Part shown: positions 5,591 to 41,999 of the stretch, in pieces
Numbering within the stretch: the first letter of the stretch is position 1
Layout: every line of letters starts with the position of its first letter
Source of the DNA: a virus
Direction: 5' to 3' (one strand)
DNA length: 41,999 nt
IMG/VR virus record: IMGVR_UViG_3300021420_000010
Location: 1-41,999 of that record
Notes under the pieces: model-generated
Seen by the model: only the letters and a program-made list of their open reading frames with translations
Databases searched by the model: none
Told to the model about the DNA's origin: nothing
Program-made: the position numbers and the translations under genes

Positions 5591-6622
5591 TTAAGCATCC
5601 AACAGGGTCGGGACGACATAGGCGAAGATAGACGCTGGACGGAGTCCCTGCGTACCATAGACCATATCGGCAGTGAACAGATCAGCAAGGAACTCTTGCT
5701 TGTACTGTTGCTGCGTCCGAATACCCATCTGCTCGACAAGGACCGCTGCATCGCGCTGGAACAGCAACGACACCGCGCCGCCTTGCACGCCGTTCGCGTT
5801 CAACACACCCGGAAGGTTGTTGGACACGTACACTTCAACAGCGTACACGTTACCAACGAGTCCATTGCGGATCGTGTTCGCAGGACCAGCCTCGCCCGTG
5901 AAGGCTTGCTGAGTGAACCGCGCCACGCCCAACAGGAGGGCCTTAGCAACCGGAGGAAGAACCAGGTAGCGACCCGCCATCGGGGCATCCACGCTGTCCA
6001 ACTTGAAGATACCACGGCGAATGCCGAGGTCAGTCAAGTCAGTCGCGTTACCAGCACCAGCGCTATTCCACGCCGTCTGGCCGTCACCAATGAACGCATT
6101 CCAGGTGGAAGCACTCGTGATGTTACCAGTCGTAGGATCTTCAACCGCAGTACCGCCCAACTGCGCAGAAGCCGCAAGCTGGAAGAAAATATCGCGGTCT
6201 ACGCGCTTAGCAATCGCATAACCCGCATCGTCAGTATAGAACCGACGGAGGCTGGGGAGCGCCTGGATGTCCACGATATCCTCAATTAAGCGCGAGTATT
6301 CCTTGTGCTTGTTGATCAGAATCGTGATACCACCAGTGCTGGAGGCATCGACGAACGGCTGCAAAGTGACCACGTTCTGGGCAACTTTGTTGTTCGCCAC
6401 ACCGCGCGCAGGAGTCGGGATACGGATAGTATCGCCTTTCTTACCGCGATGATTCAATTTACGGATAAGGTTCGCGAGGACAAGATTGCTCTTGTAGACC
6501 GCAACTACCTCATCAGACCAAAGTACTGGGACAAACCCAGCGGCTCGGACGTCATTAGGACTACCAGGGCCACCGAATAGGCTAGTACTAATGTCATTTG
6601 TTAAAACAAGTGATGTAGCCAT
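5591..6622 (-). CDS. major capsid protein
   Basis: 343 aa, a usual length for an HK97-fold capsid protein in small podoviruses. Visible features are WSDEVVAVYKSNLVLANLIR near residue 35, KKGDTIRIPTPARG near 60, the long helix region IEDIVDIQALPSLRRFYTDDAGYAIAKRVD (in pieces, about residues 112-142), GRYLVLPPVAKALLL near 217 and QQYKQEFLADLFTADMVYGT near the end. These match the E-loop, spine helix and A-domain pattern of major head proteins. It directly follows the scaffold gene. AGAAGAG before the ATG is a good SD, and a terminator-like hairpin follows, consistent with separate strong expression. Confidence 0.85.
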   Translation of the reverse strand: MATSLVLTNDISTSLFGGPGSPNDVRAAGFVPVLWSDEVVAVYKSNLVLANLIRKLNHRGKKGDTIRIPTPARGVANNKVAQNVVTLQPFVDASSTGGITILINKHKEYSRLIEDIVDIQALPSLRRFYTDDAGYAIAKRVDRDIFFQLAASAQLGGTAVEDPTTGNITSASTWNAFIGDGQTAWNSAGAGNATDLTDLGIRRGIFKLDSVDAPMAGRYLVLPPVAKALLLGVARFTQQAFTGEAGPANTIRNGLVGNVYAVEVYVSNNLPGVLNANGVQGGAVSLLFQRDAAVLVEQMGIRTQQQYKQEFLADLFTADMVYGTQGLRPASIFAYVVPTLLDA

Positions 6623-8182: not shown

Positions 8183-10270
8183 TTATTTAGCGGCAACTTT
8201 CCCTTTATTCTTAGCCGATATAAGCGCCGCATGAGCCAACATCGCCTTAATTGGCAGTTCTGCAGCAGCGATTTGATTCTGCTCAGCAAACTGCTGTCCT
8301 TCCTGTTTCTTAATCTGCAGGGCTTCCCACTGCTGATGAAGCTTGGCCACATTCGCAGTAGCGTCGTGGGCCGTCTCTTCCGCCTGTCCGAGCAATCTCT
8401 TGATCTCCGCCACAAGTTTCTGGTTCTGCAAAGTCTTTTCTTGCAGTAATAGATGCTGCATCTCAGTCTGCAATTGCTGCTGCTGGGCAGCTTGCTGTTG
8501 CGCCTGTTGCTGCTGCTGTGGGGACGGATGCGTTACAGCCTGAATAGCGGCCATAATCTCAGTCTTGTTCTGCAGGCTAGTGCTATCCACAATGCCCTCT
8601 ATCAACATCAATTGGACGGCATGGAACTCCTGCGGCATCATCCCAATAAGCTGTGTCATCTGCGCAGCTTCCACTTCACGGGCTACTATGCCCATCGTGG
8701 TCTTAATCTTTAATTCATAGTCTGCTGGATAGCGCACTGGATCGAACTGCATATATCGCCACTTGACCTTGTTCAGGAGAGGCGATAGGAAGTTACGATC
8801 TATGTTATTGATGCTTCGTTTGGCACGCTTGACAAACGCACCCATGAGCATCGAGTTGGCGCCTGCAGAGTTCGCGCCACTTTGACTCTGGTTCTTCAAA
8901 GCTGAAGCTGTATCGAAGGCGCCAGTGCCCATTTGCACCATACGCTCCATTTCCTGCGTCTGCTCGAAGGTTAGCGTTGAATAGTCGCCAATCTTGACTG
9001 GAACCAGCACTTCTGCCGGGGGGCCTTGAGTTGTCCACACTTTACCCGGTTTGACTTCAAATCTGAAGCCTTTAGGCATTCTACCCGCATCAATAGCCAG
9101 CATAGGCGCATTGATGAACCCCAGCGCGTCTACGCGCGCCCTCAATTCACTATCCAAAGCCTTCTGGGGATTGTAGCCTTTCTCGGCTACGCCCCGTCCC
9201 CAGAACCGTCCGGGGACTTTTTCAAATTGGGCCGCTACTATAGAGCGATCCTTCATCACGAACGGATTCAGCATTGCCCGGAGCAATGTGCCCGTATTCG
9301 CGACTGTTACAATAGCCTCAACCAAAGGACCATCGCCATTCTGTAGACGCGCGGCCATACGAGTGTCAGACTCTAGCTGAGTTTCTGCTTCTGTCTTTAC
9401 TTCTTTAACAGCAGTAATAAGATGTAGAGGAACCTTTCCATGATACTCTATGATGTCCACTTGTGAAGATTCATAAGTAGTGTTGACAGACATGGGATCA
9501 TCCTGGTCCACATCTGAGTTCTTAATTCGGCGAGAAGCCGACAACTGAGTAAGTGCATCTTTACGATATACTCCTTGCTCAATTCGTTCTAGAACATAGT
9601 GCATCGTACGCTGGATGCGCTGAGCGCACCCGAGCATATCCTGAATCGTCTGTCCGACAGGATCTGGGATGAATTGGTCGGGACGTACACTCTCGATAGT
9701 AACGAATACACGCTGCGAACCCCCTACCTTCAATTCAAAGGTAGATTTGTCTCTATGCGGTTTCTTATCTTCGCCAACGAAGACATTAACCTTAGCGATC
9801 ATGGTACCGAATATGGCGCCATTCATGATGGCTTCGATGATCTGATCTCGTGCATTCACCTTATCTAGATCATCAATCAACTGATCTCGTAGTTGGATAG
9901 CGAGCTTATCTACAATATCATCAGCTACGTCGAACCATTCTTCCTTGGAGAAGATCGCCTCTTCCAACTCCGAAACAGTCATTTCGATCGCTTGAGATAA
10001 TGCAGGGGCGACGAGTCTCGAACGTTCCGATAGACGATTCATGTCTACTTCGTTCCACTTTCCCCGCCACATCCTCCAATACTCGCCCCAGAGCCGTTGA
10101 TAGCCACGATTCCGGACATCTTCCCATACATTCACCTTTCCTACGATCCAGCCAACCAATTCCTGGGCAGGCTGCATCTGTCGAGTACCATACTTTGCAG
10201 CCTCTTCCGCCGCAGACTCTGGCGTCTCTACGATAATTGATTGCCCACGAGTGGGCGTTTCATTACTCAT
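8183..10270 (-). CDS. portal protein (head-tail connector)
   Basis: 695 aa, at the long end for podovirus connectors. Visible pieces are WGEYWRMWRGKWNEVDMNRL (about residues 65-84), VAPALSQAIEMTVSELEEAIF (in part, about 88-108), RDQLIDDLDKVNARDQIIEA and RFWGRGVAEKGYNPQKALDS (about 355-375). All are typical of podovirus portals. The C-terminal quarter is a long Gln-rich coiled coil (HPSPQQQQQAQQQAAQQQQL, about 580-600), as in portals with a helical barrel. The start overlaps the terminase stop as TAATG. Portal directly after terminase is the expected order. A dodecameric ring role is inferred from the family. Confidence 0.85.
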   Translation of the reverse strand: MSNETPTRGQSIIVETPESAAEEAAKYGTRQMQPAQELVGWIVGKVNVWEDVRNRGYQRLWGEYWRMWRGKWNEVDMNRLSERSRLVAPALSQAIEMTVSELEEAIFSKEEWFDVADDIVDKLAIQLRDQLIDDLDKVNARDQIIEAIMNGAIFGTMIAKVNVFVGEDKKPHRDKSTFELKVGGSQRVFVTIESVRPDQFIPDPVGQTIQDMLGCAQRIQRTMHYVLERIEQGVYRKDALTQLSASRRIKNSDVDQDDPMSVNTTYESSQVDIIEYHGKVPLHLITAVKEVKTEAETQLESDTRMAARLQNGDGPLVEAIVTVANTGTLLRAMLNPFVMKDRSIVAAQFEKVPGRFWGRGVAEKGYNPQKALDSELRARVDALGFINAPMLAIDAGRMPKGFRFEVKPGKVWTTQGPPAEVLVPVKIGDYSTLTFEQTQEMERMVQMGTGAFDTASALKNQSQSGANSAGANSMLMGAFVKRAKRSINNIDRNFLSPLLNKVKWRYMQFDPVRYPADYELKIKTTMGIVAREVEAAQMTQLIGMMPQEFHAVQLMLIEGIVDSTSLQNKTEIMAAIQAVTHPSPQQQQQAQQQAAQQQQLQTEMQHLLLQEKTLQNQKLVAEIKRLLGQAEETAHDATANVAKLHQQWEALQIKKQEGQQFAEQNQIAAAELPIKAMLAHAALISAKNKGKVAAK

Positions 10271-11631
10271 TAATGCACACTATCCGCATAGATCATGTCT
10301 TCTCTAGACCCATATTCGTAGGTATCAAGGCTAGGATCAACGAAATTAGCCATTGCCATCTGGTCCACATAGGCCAGAGCATCAATTCCGTCGTCATGTG
10401 CCAACGGATCAGGAAAATCAGCCACCTGTTGCAGAAACCAGTCATTCCATTTACGTTCCTGGTCAACGTCAGAGCAAAGTCTTACTTTATGCCGCTCTGC
10501 TCGTCCTTGTAGCGCCCACTTGATACGATCCTGCTTCTTCGTACCACCGTGAGTAAGAGGTTCGGGAGTGACATAGCGATTATATGTTCGCATGTACTCT
10601 TCAAGATAAGGTCCGCAAGCGTTAAGCAGCGCTCCAGCCTCAATTCCAAGGCGACATCCAGGATGGTTACGTACTTCCCAAACAATCTGAGCGCACGTAT
10701 CCTTAACATCCCAATGCCCGTGGAGGATCTTCAGGACAGTCCAAACATCCTCCTGTACCAATGTGATACAGATCACTGTCTCGTCGGTATCCAGCTTCTT
10801 ACTGCCCTGCTGAGTCTTGAACCCGGCAAGGTCTACAGTAATGAAGATGCTACCCGCTCCAGGATCGACTCCCTGGACCACCGGGAACCATTGTGGACGT
10901 AATACAGCCCCACCACCCGAGATGAAGGAAGCGTTCAATTCCTGCTGGATGATCTCCATCGGGCGATTGCCCGCCTGCATCATCCGCTTGAGTTCTTTCA
11001 CCTTCAGGAAGGGATTGTCTGTTGAGGCGAAGTGGAACGCCTCCCAGTCCTCCCAATCTGATTCTCCAGTCTTGGGATTGATTGGGTGCTGCAGAGCCCC
11101 CATAAACATCTTGTAGAAGTGATTCTTGCCCTTGGGTGTTCCAATGAATAGAGCTTGTGCTTCCACGTCCATCAAAGCAGGCTCTATGATCTCGTACCAT
11201 ACTTCTGGCTTCATGTCAGCGTATTCATCCATTACGATGAATGCGGGGCTAATACCACGTAAAGAGTCAGGATTGTCTGCACCACGTATATAAATACGAT
11301 GGCCGTTAACAAGCTCAATCCAGCCATCATTAGTATTTTCATTGGCGATATATCCGCCAGAAGCAACAAACCCCAACATCTGCCTCAGCTTGGGCCATAT
11401 GATGCGCCTAGCCTGCTCAAAGGTCGGGGCTACGTAGTAGACCGGATGTTCCTGGGTAATCTTGTACCCACGGTAATTAACTTCTTCAAATGCGGCGATA
11501 GAGAGGATTGCGGCCGCTAAATGAGACTTACCAAATCTGCGTCCTGCTGCCACCACCTTAAAGCGAGCAGTCGAATTATATATCGCCTGCTGCCCTGGAT
11601 GCAGCGCTATAGACAGGACGCGCTCAGCCAT
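10270..11631 (-). CDS. terminase large subunit
   Basis: 453 aa. The ATPase domain has Walker A GRRFGKS (residues 30-36) after KVVAA. Walker B is FIVMDEYAD (131-139) with D135 and E136. The coupling motif IGTPKGKNHF is at 163-172. The C-terminal nuclease has ITVDLAG (D267), GIEAG (E331) and HDDGIDALAYV (D413, D414, D417), the acidic triad that cuts concatemers at packaging. Length and motif spacing are complete. Its start overlaps the preceding stop (TAATG) and its stop overlaps the portal start. The sequence alone does not tell the packaging mechanism. Confidence 0.93.
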   Translation of the reverse strand: MAERVLSIALHPGQQAIYNSTARFKVVAAGRRFGKSHLAAAILSIAAFEEVNYRGYKITQEHPVYYVAPTFEQARRIIWPKLRQMLGFVASGGYIANENTNDGWIELVNGHRIYIRGADNPDSLRGISPAFIVMDEYADMKPEVWYEIIEPALMDVEAQALFIGTPKGKNHFYKMFMGALQHPINPKTGESDWEDWEAFHFASTDNPFLKVKELKRMMQAGNRPMEIIQQELNASFISGGGAVLRPQWFPVVQGVDPGAGSIFITVDLAGFKTQQGSKKLDTDETVICITLVQEDVWTVLKILHGHWDVKDTCAQIVWEVRNHPGCRLGIEAGALLNACGPYLEEYMRTYNRYVTPEPLTHGGTKKQDRIKWALQGRAERHKVRLCSDVDQERKWNDWFLQQVADFPDPLAHDDGIDALAYVDQMAMANFVDPSLDTYEYGSREDMIYADSVH

Positions 11632-15439: not shown

Positions 15440-15784
15440 GTATAAGACCTCTTAGAGGTATACTCTTCGCTTCGCCGGAACATGTAGGCGAAGCGGGATG
15501 GGTGTTAGGCGACAGGCTCCAAGGACTGGAGCCGTTAGTGGATATAGGCCGCACCAAGCGGCCAAAGGCGATAGAGGGTAGGAAGGCCCTTAGGGGCCTA
15601 AAACTGATAACCTGTTAAATGATTCGCTATTCGCGAATCGCAGACATAGTTATAGCTTTCTTAAAGATCTTAACTTTGCCATCCCTTGTGGGGATGGCTA
15701 TCTTACTCGGAGGATCTAGTATAGATCCGGAGAGGAAGAAGTTAAGATCATCTTACTCCCCTCCGTAGGTTCCCCTCAAATTGC
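15440..15784 (-). promoter_or_regulatory. structured leader of the leftward operon
   Basis: This non-coding stretch lies between the leftward promoter candidate and the first leftward gene. It holds perfect inverted repeats at 15447-15459 (5 bp), 15468-15495 (9 bp, loop 10), 15515-15533 (6 bp, loop 7), 15547-15563 (6 bp, loop 5), 15584-15599 (6 bp, loop 4) and 15621-15639 (7 bp, loop 5), plus the branched fold at 15666-15749. None is followed by a strong U-tract on either strand, so they do not look like simple terminators. The last hairpin covers the SD of the first gene. Confidence 0.65.
15666..15749 (-). ncRNA. three-way-junction RNA element candidate
   Basis: An 11-bp perfect outer stem (15666-15676 with 15739-15749) encloses two perfect hairpins: 8 bp with a TTGTG loop (15678-15698) and 7 bp with a 3-base loop (15712-15728). 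All helices are Watson-Crick only, so either strand could fold. The leftward strand is favoured because the element starts about 35 nt after the leftward promoter candidate. It could be a cis-acting leader element, a processed small RNA or a packaging or replication structure. No known RNA family recognised. Confidence 0.5.
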
Positions 15785-15790
15785 TGGCAA

Positions 15791-15819
15791 AGTATACAAA
15801 CACAGAATCCAAACTTCAA
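15791..15819 (-). promoter_or_regulatory. leftward sigma-70-like promoter candidate
   Basis: On the minus strand TTGAAG (15819-15814) is separated by 17 bases from TATACT (15796-15791), four and five of six matches to the sigma-70 consensus. TCAACAG (15816-15822) and CTGTTGA (15838-15844) form an inverted repeat over the -35 side, a possible operator. It would drive the leftward late operon, with the start near 15784. A promoter for the phage sigma-like factor could also lie here. Confidence 0.5.
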
Positions 15820-15881
15820 CAGCGCTATCGCCGTAACCTGTTGATTATTAGGCGAAAATATATTTCGTGTTTTGTTAAGGT

Positions 15882-15895
15882 TCTGATATATCAGA
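15882..15895. promoter_or_regulatory. 14-bp palindrome, operator candidate
   Basis: TCTGATATATCAGA is a perfect palindrome in the centre of the divergent region, next to CGAAA-ATATA-TTTCG (15853-15867). Both lie between the leftward and rightward promoter candidates, where a dimeric regulator could act on both arms. Confidence 0.45.
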
Positions 15896-15933
15896 CACGT
15901 AAGTCATTGATTGTTGTTTTGTCTTGACACTTC

Positions 15934-15962
15934 TTAACATTCTAAGTCATTGATTTTATTAT
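15934..15962 (+). promoter_or_regulatory. rightward early promoter candidate
   Basis: TTAACA (15934-15939), a 17-base spacer and TATTAT (15957-15962) give five of six matches at both boxes. The spacer contains one TAAGTCATTGATT repeat, so a protein bound there would block polymerase. The transcript would have a leader of about 500 nt before the first gene at 16476. Confidence 0.5.
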
Positions 15963-16070
15963 GTAGGAATTATCTTACACAGATTCGTAACCCATTGATT
16001 TCCTTAGATTCCTCTTTTTGCCGTTTGGTGAGCTGATAAGGTAACGGCCACGCCCAGGAATGCTTAAAAG

Positions 16071-16191
16071 GGGGTACCCCTACCTTATGGTATATCCCAT
16101 TATGTTCAATTGGATTATGTTCAAATAGATTATGACATTGAATGCGCGTTCAATCAATGACAGATTGTTGCATCAACGTTCAACATGTTGA
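16071..16191. repeat. palindromes and 15-bp tandem repeat in divergent region
   Basis: GGGGTACCCC (16071-16080) and TCAACATGTTGA (16180-16191) are perfect palindromes. Between them ATTATG begins three units with an exact 15-bp period at 16099, 16114 and 16129. The first two units share ATTATGTTCAA and the third is degenerate. Such phased short repeats are typical of protein-binding arrays. No open reading frame of useful length is present. Confidence 0.5.
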
Positions 16192-16302
16192 CAGTGTGTC
16201 AATGACTAGACAACCATCCACCTACGACAGGGACGGGGGGAGCTACTAGGGTAGCGGGTAGGGTATCGATCGCCTATCCTGGGGCATATACGGAGGAGTA
16301 AT

Positions 16303-16332
16303 ATGTTATGTGACGCGACGTGTCACATATGA
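16303..16332 (+). promoter_or_regulatory. nine-codon leader peptide overlapping a hairpin
   Basis: A very strong SD (GGAGGAG, 16292-16298) precedes ATG at 16303 and a nine-codon frame MLCDATCHI ending in TGA at 16332. The frame overlaps a perfect 8-bp hairpin, TATGTGAC (16307-16314) with GTCACATA (16322-16329), loop 7. This resembles a leader peptide whose translation changes folding of the downstream mRNA. The same bases could instead be a TGTGAC-type operator. Confidence 0.4.
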
Positions 16333-16346
16333 GCAGTCTTGGGCGC

Positions 16347-16359
16347 ATTGTGACACAAT
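16347..16359. promoter_or_regulatory. TGTGACACA operator candidate 1
   Basis: ATTGTGACACAAT is a perfect 13-base palindrome around a central A. Its nine-base core TGTGACACA recurs in a second palindrome at 16760-16770 inside another promoter candidate. Further half-sites TGTGAC, TGTCAC and TGTCAT lie at 16310, 16321 and 16361. The cluster is just upstream of the first early gene. Confidence 0.5.
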
Positions 16360-16405
16360 TTGTCATTTACATAATTGTATCATTTGATCTAAGTCATTGA
16401 TATCA

Positions 16406-16434
16406 TTGACAATCGTATATTGGCATGCTACCTG
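16406..16434 (+). promoter_or_regulatory. weak rightward promoter candidate before first early gene
   Basis: TTGACA (16406-16411) is a perfect -35 box. A 17-base spacer ends in TGC followed by TACCTG (16429-16434), an extended -10 with a poor hexamer. It sits next to the fourth TAAGTCATTGAT repeat and about 40 bases before the first early start codon. Confidence 0.35.
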
Positions 16435-18721: not shown

Positions 18722-20284
18722 ATGCCAGCACTAATTAGTACTCCGCAGACGGTTGGCGGTATAACATATAATACAGCGCATTTCCATCCCCTAAACGATG
18801 GGATCGAGGATGGAGATTGTTGTATTACCGCAATGGTACAGGCAGCTAAAGAGGGGCGCGCCTCATATACAGGCGAGGATGCCTGCGTCAAAGCGCGCCT
18901 AGCGGTCATACAGCGACTGCATATGATAAATTATCTATCATTGCCCCCTATTATTAGGACGTATCTATTCAAAGGTACAGGCATATCGCGCGAGCCAAGC
19001 TCGCCAAATCACTACAGTATAGCCATAAGCGGTACAGCTTATAGCGACGATACAGGGACAAGCCATCATGTACGCATTGCTGTGGCTTATCTTATAGATC
19101 ATAATTACAGCGGGCCAAGACCGCGCGAACCAGAATATTTAAACAATTATTTTTACCCTGCCCTGCAGGCAGCAGATGCTGCATGGGCGCGCATGCAAAC
19201 ATCGTTTGTATGTATTGAGTGCGAGGATTCTATAACCCCTCCGCATAGTGGTAGCGTATATTTGCGTAGAGGGCAGTTAGATAATAATACCCCCCCTAAT
19301 ATGTGCGCGGGGTGTTTCGCTTCTCAGTATGTCTACAGTAATGTGCAAGGTATGTACATAGTCCGCGACGACGCTATAGAAGTAAGTGCCGTAGGCTGGG
19401 TAACTGAGGAATACGCTAGCGAAAACTTCTATATGCAGGAGGACGGCTATTATTCAGCTGAACAGCCTTCTAGCCGTAGGCTAATGGAATACTCCGCAGA
19501 TCCATTCCATACCTTTGCATGGGACACGCGCAATAAGCCGAATGCTTTGGTGTTTGGCGTTGAGTTAGAAATGGAGCATATAAACCCCTCAGGAGCCAAT
19601 CAGCAAGCGCTGGTGACGGCGCTCGGCGGCAGCAGAGGAAAGAACTTCATTCTTAAGAGCGATAGCAGTTTAAACTACGGAGTAGAATTGGTCACTATGC
19701 CCTTCACGCTGGCACAGCACCTAGACGGCTCCGGAGTAGATTGGAAAGCTGTACTTGATAGCGTCAAGGATATAGGCCGCAGCGGGGTCGCAACTAGCAG
19801 TTGCGGTATTCATATACATATCAATAAAAAGGCGCTGAGTGCTCTTACCATAGGCAAGATGCTGGTATTCTTGAATGATCCAGGATTAGCGCCTCTTATC
19901 ACTACGATAGCGCAACGTCCCTCAAGTCACTATTGCACGCGAAGCGCGAAGAAAATGACAGACGGGTCGCGCTCCAGCGAAAGCCGGTACGACATTATGA
20001 ATGTCTCTGTTAGACATCCTACTTGCGAACTACGCATGTTCCGTGGCAATCTGACTGTTGAACGGATGTACAAGAATCTAGAATTCTGTCATGCGTTGGT
20101 GCAGTATTGCAGGCAGTCAAGTATGCGCACTCTGACAGACTGGGGAGCATTCTCCCAGTGGATGATTAAAAATCGGGGAACGTATCCTAATCTGGTACGA
20201 TTCCTGATCGACCAAAAGACCGTAGGATTTAGGCAGCTAGCACGCGATAGTCGCGACGGCCAAGTAACCATTCGTGACAAATAA
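18722..20284 (+). CDS. amidoligase-family enzyme with N-terminal zinc module
   Basis: 520 aa. Residues 275-470 show the amidoligase (glutamine synthetase-like) core: FGVELEME (278-285), KSDSSL (312-317), ELVTMPF (322-328), CGIHIHIN (361-368) and ELRMFRGNL (436-444). These ATP-dependent enzymes form amide bonds between carboxylates and amines. The N-terminal 270 residues are unusual and hold a CxxC...CxxC zinc knuckle (C164, C167, C195, C198). The next gene is a class-II glutamine amidotransferase, a pairing described for amidoligases, which would feed ammonia from glutamine. AGGAAAAG precedes the ATG. Substrate unknown. Confidence 0.75.
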   Translation: MPALISTPQTVGGITYNTAHFHPLNDGIEDGDCCITAMVQAAKEGRASYTGEDACVKARLAVIQRLHMINYLSLPPIIRTYLFKGTGISREPSSPNHYSIAISGTAYSDDTGTSHHVRIAVAYLIDHNYSGPRPREPEYLNNYFYPALQAADAAWARMQTSFVCIECEDSITPPHSGSVYLRRGQLDNNTPPNMCAGCFASQYVYSNVQGMYIVRDDAIEVSAVGWVTEEYASENFYMQEDGYYSAEQPSSRRLMEYSADPFHTFAWDTRNKPNALVFGVELEMEHINPSGANQQALVTALGGSRGKNFILKSDSSLNYGVELVTMPFTLAQHLDGSGVDWKAVLDSVKDIGRSGVATSSCGIHIHINKKALSALTIGKMLVFLNDPGLAPLITTIAQRPSSHYCTRSAKKMTDGSRSSESRYDIMNVSVRHPTCELRMFRGNLTVERMYKNLEFCHALVQYCRQSSMRTLTDWGAFSQWMIKNRGTYPNLVRFLIDQKTVGFRQLARDSRDGQVTIRDK

Positions 20285-20296
20285 GAGAGTTTAAAC

Positions 20297-21424
20297 ATGT
20301 GCTTAATTGCTTATAGTCCTCAAGGGACGATGATAGATCGCTCGATTCTGGCGTATGCTCATAACCAGAATCCGGACGGCATAGGTATTATGTCCAAGGC
20401 TGGGATACAAAAGTTCCTAGGGCATAAAGCGCTTAAGCGCGCTAGAAGGTATATGGAAGCCTATATAGCTCCGGAAAAGATTCCCTATGCTATACACTTT
20501 CGTTGGGCTACACACGGCGAAGTAGGTGTAGCTAACACACACCCTTATGTGTCTCCAGAGAAAACACATGCTGTAATGCATAATGGTGTTATAAGCCTCA
20601 CTACTGCTGAAAGCAGTAAAGCGGAGTCTGACACTGCTGTATTCGTTCGTAAGTACATGGACAGCATTCAGCCTTATGATGATGCTGCTTACTGGCGCGG
20701 TATTGAAACTAAAATTACATGGGGCAGCAAGCTTTGCATTATGAACTTTGAGGGAGCGTTTAAGCTTTGTAATGAGAATGCGGGCGAATGGATAAACGGG
20801 ATATGGTTCAGCAACACTTATAGTTTGCCTGCGCATGCTGTCCCTCGCAGGGAGTATGTGTATCAAGATACATGGTATAGGGGTACACGTAGCAGCCCTA
20901 CTACTGGATACGTCAACACGTACAGTAAGGATATATGGGACTATGAAACGAACAGTTTCCAGCCTAATCCTAACTATGTTCCTTATATCCCTAAGGAAAT
21001 ATGGGACAAGACGGAAGGTAAAATGGTTCCTAATCCGGAGTATAAAGCTGCGGACGACGCGTCTGTAGTTTGTATGGGCAATAAGGATTTCCCTAACAAG
21101 GATCACAAGCCGGTCAACCTGATTGAATGGCGCGCGCGGAAGGCCGCAGCCGAGCATGGTGTATGGTCTGGCGAGGATCGCCGCAGCTACTACGAAAGCC
21201 TAGAAGCCGGTCTTACGCCCCAAGAGGCGGAGTATTACGACATCGGCACTGTCGCAGCTAGGGCCGCGGAAGCGGAGCTAGAGCGCGCGATCGAGGAAGA
21301 TATTCCCACAATGAAAGACGTAGCGCCTATAGGGGGAGACTTCCCCGAGGAGCAAACAGCCGAGGAGCGGCAAGACTGGAAAACATATCTTTCCGAAGTA
21401 GCAGCAGGGATACATAACTCATGA
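20297..21424 (+). CDS. class-II glutamine amidotransferase
   Basis: 375 aa. Cys2 right after the initiator Met is the N-terminal nucleophile. NPDGIG (24-29), HFRWATHG (67-74), NTHPY (80-84) and MHNG (94-97) are the glutamine-binding and oxyanion motifs of the Ntn-type GATase fold, which ends near residue 180. The C-terminal 195 residues contain repeats such as KDIWDYETNSFQPNPNY and KEIWDKTEGKMVPNPEY and an acidic helical end. The start codon directly follows GTTTAAAC (20289-20296). The enzyme would release ammonia for the adjacent amidoligase. Confidence 0.8.
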   Translation: MCLIAYSPQGTMIDRSILAYAHNQNPDGIGIMSKAGIQKFLGHKALKRARRYMEAYIAPEKIPYAIHFRWATHGEVGVANTHPYVSPEKTHAVMHNGVISLTTAESSKAESDTAVFVRKYMDSIQPYDDAAYWRGIETKITWGSKLCIMNFEGAFKLCNENAGEWINGIWFSNTYSLPAHAVPRREYVYQDTWYRGTRSSPTTGYVNTYSKDIWDYETNSFQPNPNYVPYIPKEIWDKTEGKMVPNPEYKAADDASVVCMGNKDFPNKDHKPVNLIEWRARKAAAEHGVWSGEDRRSYYESLEAGLTPQEAEYYDIGTVAARAAEAELERAIEEDIPTMKDVAPIGGDFPEEQTAEERQDWKTYLSEVAAGIHNS

Positions 21425-22354: not shown

Positions 22355-22504
22355 ATGTTTAAACATCCAGACTTTTTTCGTTATAATTCCAGGAATGGGG
22401 TAGTATACTTTGCCAACACTCCAGGGGTTAAACTAGCAGAGTGTATAAAGAAGCTAGTAAGGCGATACCTTAAGGTTCAAGGACGCAGAATCCCTATCTC
22501 CTAG
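22355..22504 (+). CDS. small basic protein (49 aa)
   Basis: It begins MFKHPDFFRYNSRNGVVYFA and ends with a basic helix (IKKLVRRYLKVQGRR). The start codon runs into GTTTAAAC (22357-22364). No SD is visible, but the stop of the 17-aa leader frame is one base upstream, so reinitiation is likely. Possible nucleic-acid binder. No family recognised. Confidence 0.45.
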   Translation: MFKHPDFFRYNSRNGVVYFANTPGVKLAECIKKLVRRYLKVQGRRIPIS

Positions 22505-22548
22505 CAATGGGGGGTAGGGGGGCTGTTGTCCTTAGGTTCAAGCTATAG

Positions 22549-22571
22549 GCGCGTACCGCCAGAGTACGCGC
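22549..22571 (+). promoter_or_regulatory. perfect hairpin abutting an SD
   Basis: GCGCGTAC (22549-22556) pairs with GTACGCGC (22564-22571) around a 7-base loop. The GGAG SD of the next gene (22572-22575) starts at the very base of the stem. It lacks a T-tract. It may stabilise the 5' end of the mRNA or set access to the SD. Confidence 0.5.
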
Positions 22572-22584
22572 GGAGTGTAGATAT

Positions 22585-41611: not shown

Positions 41612-41999
41612 TTAGGTATACGAGAATTTACATTGACCAGGATTGCCGTTACCGGCACCGGTGGGCTGCCCAGTGCCCTGTCCACCAATACCAATAGTTC
41701 CATTGACTAGGCCGGGATTGCCGCCCGCGCCTCCGCTCGCGCCAGAGGCGCCTGTTACACCGGAGGTATTCGTTGTAGTGCCTCCGGAGGCTCCGCCTCC
41801 AGCACCGCCAGTACCATTACCCGCAGCGCCTGTGCCAGGCTGCGCAGCAGTAACCGATAGGGTAGTGATAGAACTACCAGAGACAGACGCCGCGCTGCCT
41901 GCTGTGCCGTTACCTTGTCCACCACTATGCCCCGCGCCCCCGGCCCCAGAAGCATATGTGAAGGTCTGTCCGCCGCTGCAGCCAATATTTGCACTCTTA
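41612..41999 (-). CDS. glycine-rich tail protein, C-terminal part (cut by contig end)
   Basis: Continuation of the gene that starts at 321. Bases 41873-41999 repeat the segment already present at 1-127. From 41872 the frame reads SITTLSVTAAQPGTGAAGN and then GGAGGGASGGTTTNTSG, ending GNGNPGQCKFSYT with TAA at 41614-41612. Almost half of the residues here are Gly or Ala. The frame is unbroken across the junction, which supports circularity. A tail-tip role is inferred as for the first part. Confidence 0.75.
   Translation of the reverse strand, partial: KSANIGCSGGQTFTYASGAGGAGHSGGQGNGTAGSAASVSGSSITTLSVTAAQPGTGAAGNGTGGAGGGASGGTTTNTSGVTGASGASGGAGGNPGLVNGTIGIGGQGTGQPTGAGNGNPGQCKFSYT
41873..41999. 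repeat. contig-end overlap, right copy
   Basis: Identical to 1-127 (see that entry). It should be counted once when the genome is closed. Confidence 0.9.

Follow-up and report, generated by a model that had tools for sequence, protein, structure and literature searches.

Genomic setting

The DNA analysed here comprises positions 1-41,999 of IMG/VR virus record IMGVR_UViG_3300021420_000010, from an uncultured phage, and this whole stretch of 41,999 nucleotides is referred to as the window. Its first and last 127 bases are identical (1-127 = 41873-41999), which probably makes the window a complete circular assembly, about 41.87 kb long; an exact end repeat of 127 nt matches a common assembler k-mer size, which probably points to a circular assembly and not to a true terminal repeat. 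The phage appears to belong to a podovirus-like lineage for which phage-record searches returned no close relative, and DNA similarity to the window, sought directly in 50,697 phage records, was found in none of them.

Leftward late genes and rightward early genes diverge from an intergenic gap at 15440-16424, which houses an 84-nt three-way-junction element (Table 1). On the circle, the late transcription unit spans about 21 kb, from 15439 leftward to 1 and then from 41.9 to 36.2 kb. Elsewhere in the early region (18722-21424), an amidoligase-like gene lies beside a glutamine-amidotransferase-like gene, the latter below the Pfam cut-off.

The initial annotation had placed the element about 35 bases behind a leftward promoter candidate, and a sigma70-like consensus match at 15819-15791 bears out this spacing. 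In the window and in one of the two relatives described below (L236), the best minus-strand promoter candidate near the element sits 35-45 nt before it, while in the other (L237) the late promoter candidate is weak. Two further observations concern promoters. An exact 13-mer, GTATACTTTGCCA, lies within a longer stretch of similarity at each of two presumed promoters, 15785-15797 (-) and 22403-22415 (+), and the leader behind the second (22403-22584) is strongly folded (z -5.2). The string CTTGACACTTCTTAACA is common to window 15925-15942 (+) and L237 6635-6652 (-), but with the late genes as reference the two copies point in opposite directions.

Table 1. Features at and around the element, in window coordinates
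Feature	Position	Strand	Remark
Terminator-like hairpin	5581-5558	-	just past gene 5591-6622, the presumed (major) capsid gene
Portal/head-tail adaptor	8183-10270		leftward late gene
TerL	10270-11631		leftward late gene
First late-operon gene, 192 aa	14861-15439	-	no family match; homologues follow the element directly in both relatives
Small palindrome ACCUC-UAA-GAGGU	15447-15459	-	overlaps ribosome-binding site of first late gene; read from sequence
Leader hairpin, 9 bp, loop 10	15468-15495	-	
Leader hairpin, 7 bp, loop 5	15515-15533	-	
Leader hairpin, 6 bp, loop 5	15547-15563	-	
Leader hairpin, 6 bp, loop 4	15584-15599	-	
Leader hairpin, 7 bp, loop 5	15621-15639	-	
Three-way-junction element, 84 nt	15666-15749	-	folding, descriptor search, orthologues via covariance models
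P1, outer stem, 11 bp, 100% complementary	15739-15749 with 15666-15676	-	
Arm P3, simple hairpin, 8 bp, loop CACAA (5 nt)	15678-15698	-	
Arm P2, compound hairpin	15702-15738	-	from predicted fold
Late promoter candidate TTGAAG-17-TATACT, sigma70-like	15791-15819	-	consensus match only
Five putative IHF-consensus sites, at 15834, 15900, 15943, 15988, 16390	15834-16402	-	consensus match
Early promoter candidate TTAACA-17-TATTAT	15934-15962	+	consensus match only
Primase, DnaB-like helicase, DNA polymerase, exonuclease	from 16425		rightward early genes

Structure of the element

The pairings first read at 15666-15749, an 11-bp outer stem enclosing hairpins of 8 and 7 bp, are all present there. 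The 7-bp hairpin (15712-15728) had nevertheless been understated: its stem (15722-15728/15712-15718, loop UAC, 3 nt) stands, and the arm runs on through an internal loop, UCC/UCC (15729-15731/15709-15711), into a second stem of seven positions with one C-U mismatch (15732-15738/15702-15708). Because the hairpin is prolonged in this way, the junction has almost no unpaired bases.

On the late (minus) strand the element folds with an MFE of -39.6 kcal/mol (z -5.3), and on the plus strand with -43.1 (z -4.7) into the same fold; for neither strand was any of 200 shuffles as good, and DNA parameters also return this fold for both strands. A descriptor for perfect three-way junctions matched two places in the window, compared with 0.07 weaker ones per shuffled window, and among 60 window shuffles there was no match as strong as the element. 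The four Dam sites (GATC) within the 84 nt were dropped as a signal, as they are a consequence of the repeats.

Conservation in related phages

Two syntenic genomes, IMG/VR 3300042090_000130 and 3300048822_000012, with TerL 54-56% identical (tblastn), served as relatives; they were reached by helicase search (loci L232 and L233, records G001 and G002), and their late regions are L236 and L237. Both late regions carry homologues of the first late gene with a hairpin-dense stretch immediately upstream. Each also holds a three-way junction when folded by energy minimisation of its own sequence alone, the two spanning 82 to ~97 nt (L237: 6365-6446(-), MFE -45.5, z -7.8; L236: 6225-6307(-), MFE -42.3, z -6.8); with a longer 5' flank included in L236, an upstream hairpin competes with P1. 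The architecture is common to all three phages: P1 of 10-12 bp, a compound P2 with a short loop, and then P3 of 7-9 bp. On the late strand, the P2 internal loop reads UCC/UCC in the window and UCC/UAC or CC/UAC in the relatives (consensus UCC/UMC). Position and orientation before the same first late gene are likewise kept in all three.

A covariance search in related phages, proposed as a check by the initial annotation, returned both orthologues as the top two matches. A model built from just the window element and applied unfiltered to both relatives (~47.5 kb) ranked L237 first (E 1.5e-5) and L236 second (E 9e-4), with the next match at 0.2, all covariance-model E-values being rough. Reciprocally, a model of the L237 element alone placed window 15667-15748(-) at the top in 42 kb, with an E of 7.7e-4 against 0.53 for the runner-up, and matched the L236 element with an E of 3e-7.

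Since MAFFT alone misaligns the three elements, their alignment was built through the covariance model. Compensatory double changes are found at 27 of its 33 pairs, and 93.9% of cells are paired versus 39-46% after sliding by 1-3 columns, with none of 500 shuffles reaching any pairing measure; the alignment is fitted to structure, so that these pair counts lean towards structure, and the independent folds and model searches do not depend on it. Paired-column identity of the window to the relatives is 19/65 and 21/65 (~30%), with no significant blastn match, and about 30-50% among all three orthologues. Fold and place are the same while almost all base pairs differ, so selection acts on the shape. 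Relatives that kept the sequence and lost the pairing had been named beforehand as the sign against a functional fold; what they present is the opposite, with the pairing kept and the sequence not. The existence of the fold, the compensatory changes that conserve it, and the constancy of its place and orientation are thereby established.

The three-element model gave no match in the remoter TerL relatives, and no further member over the whole 0.69 Mb of loci that include them. Pattern scans of IMG/VR for the neighbouring genes and the outer stem were empty. A half-element pattern retrieved 10 loci, none with the junction (0/10), and a route through proteins around phrog_6361 ended in unrelated phages; both were set aside.

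Against the element, no Rfam 15 covariance model scored above its gathering threshold, and a permissive Rfam search gave only one match, of 12.8 bits, elsewhere in the leader. ARAGORN reported neither tRNA nor tmRNA at the element. An intrinsic terminator scan was empty there too, and no U tract lies behind the element or the other leader hairpins. The earlier impressions that it resembles neither a terminator nor a recognised RNA family are therefore in line with these searches: the fold is real, conserved, and in no catalogued RNA family.

A hairpin-packed presumed late leader

The presumed leader of the late unit, 345 nt long, contains seven perfect hairpins against 0.66 expected, a number reached by none of 500 shuffles, and the fold of the whole leader has a z of -6.4. 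It is the densest hairpin region of the window genome, with the element as its first domain. The 605 bp upstream of the promoter hold three hairpins against 1.2 expected, matched in 64 of 500 shuffles and hence not significant. The same applies to the relatives, whose leaders hold five hairpins each (0.66 and 0.43 expected) and whose upstream stretches are not significant; all three phages have a leader packed with hairpins, of which the element is one domain. The small palindrome at the start of the first late gene is only partly formed in the predicted leader fold.

In remoter TerL relatives (40-46%), inverted repeats follow a strong late promoter, which in the broader lineage is CTTGACTTTT-N11-TGNTATAATA-like. 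Enclosing inverted repeats (p<=0.05) follow the late promoter in 10 of 40 leaders, the window included, compared with 5 of 95 control promoters (Fisher p 0.002). In clade A1 a single palindrome, directly repeated, supplies both arms and shows no compensation; these repeats are therefore not counted as the same element.

Some of these leaders have features of their own. In L026, L038, L040, L060, L061 and L018, the late promoter is followed by two CTTAAGTATMCTTAAG palindromes at a spacing of ~70 bp. They vary in the manner of direct repeats, a pattern that suggests paired operators and not pairing in RNA. The late leaders of one clade (L049:265-340, L075:5979-6055, L203:3119-3190, L213, L224) carry a different conserved hairpin, GUUCGUAUAGAUCCC...GGGACUCAUGCGAAC, in which the internal-loop letters are conserved and two pairs are compensated. 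Many remote relatives have an extended IHF-like form, TAAGTCATTGATTT, close to their late promoter, often 80-133 bp before it.

Discussion

The initial annotation had left three options for the element: a new cis-acting leader, a processed phage small RNA, or a DNA structure for replication or packaging. Of these, the cis-acting leader is best supported, on account of the place and orientation that the fold has kept before the first late gene and of the hairpin-packed leader around it, in three genomes; the processed small RNA has gained no specific support. On balance, we consider it more likely than not that the element is a conserved, structured part of the 5' leader of the late transcription unit and acts in cis, and the broader statement that it acts in cis at the RNA level is, if anything, slightly more probable. 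In either form, we infer that the late RNA is the functional molecule.

A role of the DNA itself is less likely, but it is the main rival. The inverted repeats would then form a cruciform or a folded single strand in a replication origin or a packaging or recombination site at the divergent region, close to DNA bent by IHF. One example would be a single-strand initiation site used by a primase and a DnaB-like helicase of the phage, which does encode its own primase, helicase and polymerase. The predicted late-strand folds of the three elements contain not one G-U pair among 98 pairs (P ~0.007 at a G-U rate of 5%, 3e-5 at 10%), which is unusual for an RNA-only constraint and counts against the late-RNA reading, and their DNA folding energies are extreme as well (z -5.4 to -8.6). 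Five of the six matches in 42 kb to WATCAANNNNTTR, which we take to be the IHF consensus, cluster upstream of the late promoter, all in one orientation. They are at least 85 nt away from the element, however, whereas the only such site of L236 adjoins its element, and L237 has a near-match a few nucleotides from its own. The cumulative GC skew of the window has its minimum at ~15 kb, but it tracks gene orientation and so is not independent evidence for an origin. RNA is favoured by the confinement of the hairpins to the interval from late promoter to start codon in three genomes, by the place and orientation kept before the late gene, by a promoter candidate 35-45 nt before the element in two of the three, and by the enclosing repeats and the compensated hairpin that follow the late promoter in parts of the broader lineage.

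Were the transcript read from the opposite strand, the element would be an antisense or early RNA with G-A pairs in its internal loop, acting in trans or against the late leader. Mismatches and internal loops, mostly pyrimidine-pyrimidine on the late strand, become G-A rich on the plus strand, where these positions read G-A, G-G or U-G, and the plus-strand MFE is lower by 3.5-5.6 kcal/mol in all three elements. The z-scores are alike on both strands and do not favour the plus strand, which weakens this energy gap as strand evidence, since composition explains much of it. Since none of the three genomes has a convincing rightward promoter leading into the element, and no clear terminator follows it, we regard this alternative as improbable. 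A chance inverted repeat or a MITE-like mobile repeat is suggested by the 11-bp terminal inverted repeats, which resemble those of a small repeat element; yet the element is single-copy in the window genome, shuffles produce nothing as strong, and covariation refutes it, two relatives having this fold at the orthologous position in another sequence, which leaves this explanation a negligible probability.

Among known systems, single-strand initiation hairpins occur in phage and plasmid origins (ssi/PAS, and ssiA/ssiB of IncQ). The likeness is that perfect hairpins adjoin an AT-rich region carrying repeated protein sites and that the replicon encodes a primase and a helicase of its own; the difference is that the hairpins here fill a presumed mRNA leader. 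Intrinsic terminators and attenuators share the GC-rich leader hairpins, but the U tract of a terminator is absent here. The element also recalls the pRNA of phi29-type phages, which is likewise a three-way junction from a phage and likewise joins an outer helix to two arms, of which one is interrupted. It lacks a match to the Rfam covariance model, however, and the arm loops of the three elements (UAC/CACAA, UACG/CAAG and AACCAA/CCUAGU) are not mutually complementary, whereas pRNA loops are complementary for the formation of multimers. In addition, where phi29 has its ATPase and protein-primed polymerase, the window phage has a TerL of the common kind and a polymerase that is family-A-like.

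For the preferred structured late leader, a known system in a comparable place is the put antiterminator RNA of HK022, which comprises two adjacent stem-loops of ~70 nt near the promoter, binds the beta' zinc-binding domain of RNA polymerase and suppresses termination (PMC9378689). As with putL and putR, a structured RNA close behind a phage promoter and ahead of a long operon would be read from the nascent transcript. In contrast to put, known here by description, the element is an 84-nt three-way junction with a closing P1 and falls outside the put fold, and its stems are almost fully turned over where put members share sequence.

On the preferred reading, leftward transcription would start at the promoter near 15791, and the nascent RNA, from about 35 nt onward, would fold into a compact three-way junction of P1, P2 with its UCC/UMC loop, and P3, as one domain of an almost fully paired leader reaching the start codon of the first late gene. 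The folded leader may then act on the transcribing RNA polymerase, with put-like processivity, to allow read-through of the long late operon. We prefer this mechanism to other leader functions because the late unit is ~21 kb long and has a terminator-like site behind the presumed capsid gene, but the preference is tentative, and protection of the 5' end of the long late mRNA is nearly as likely. More doubtful still is the idea that the element, with a fold unrelated to put, stands for a hitherto unrecorded class of cis-acting phage RNA for antitermination or late control, one that would commit host RNA polymerase to the 21-kb late operon with no antiterminator protein.

Because compensatory pairs already exist in nature, the RNA and DNA readings are directly testable. 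The element marks a control point ahead of the entire late programme; should it prove to be an RNA that acts on the polymerase, phage antitermination would have a second protein-free fold, and if it acts as DNA, it would mark an origin or a packaging site.
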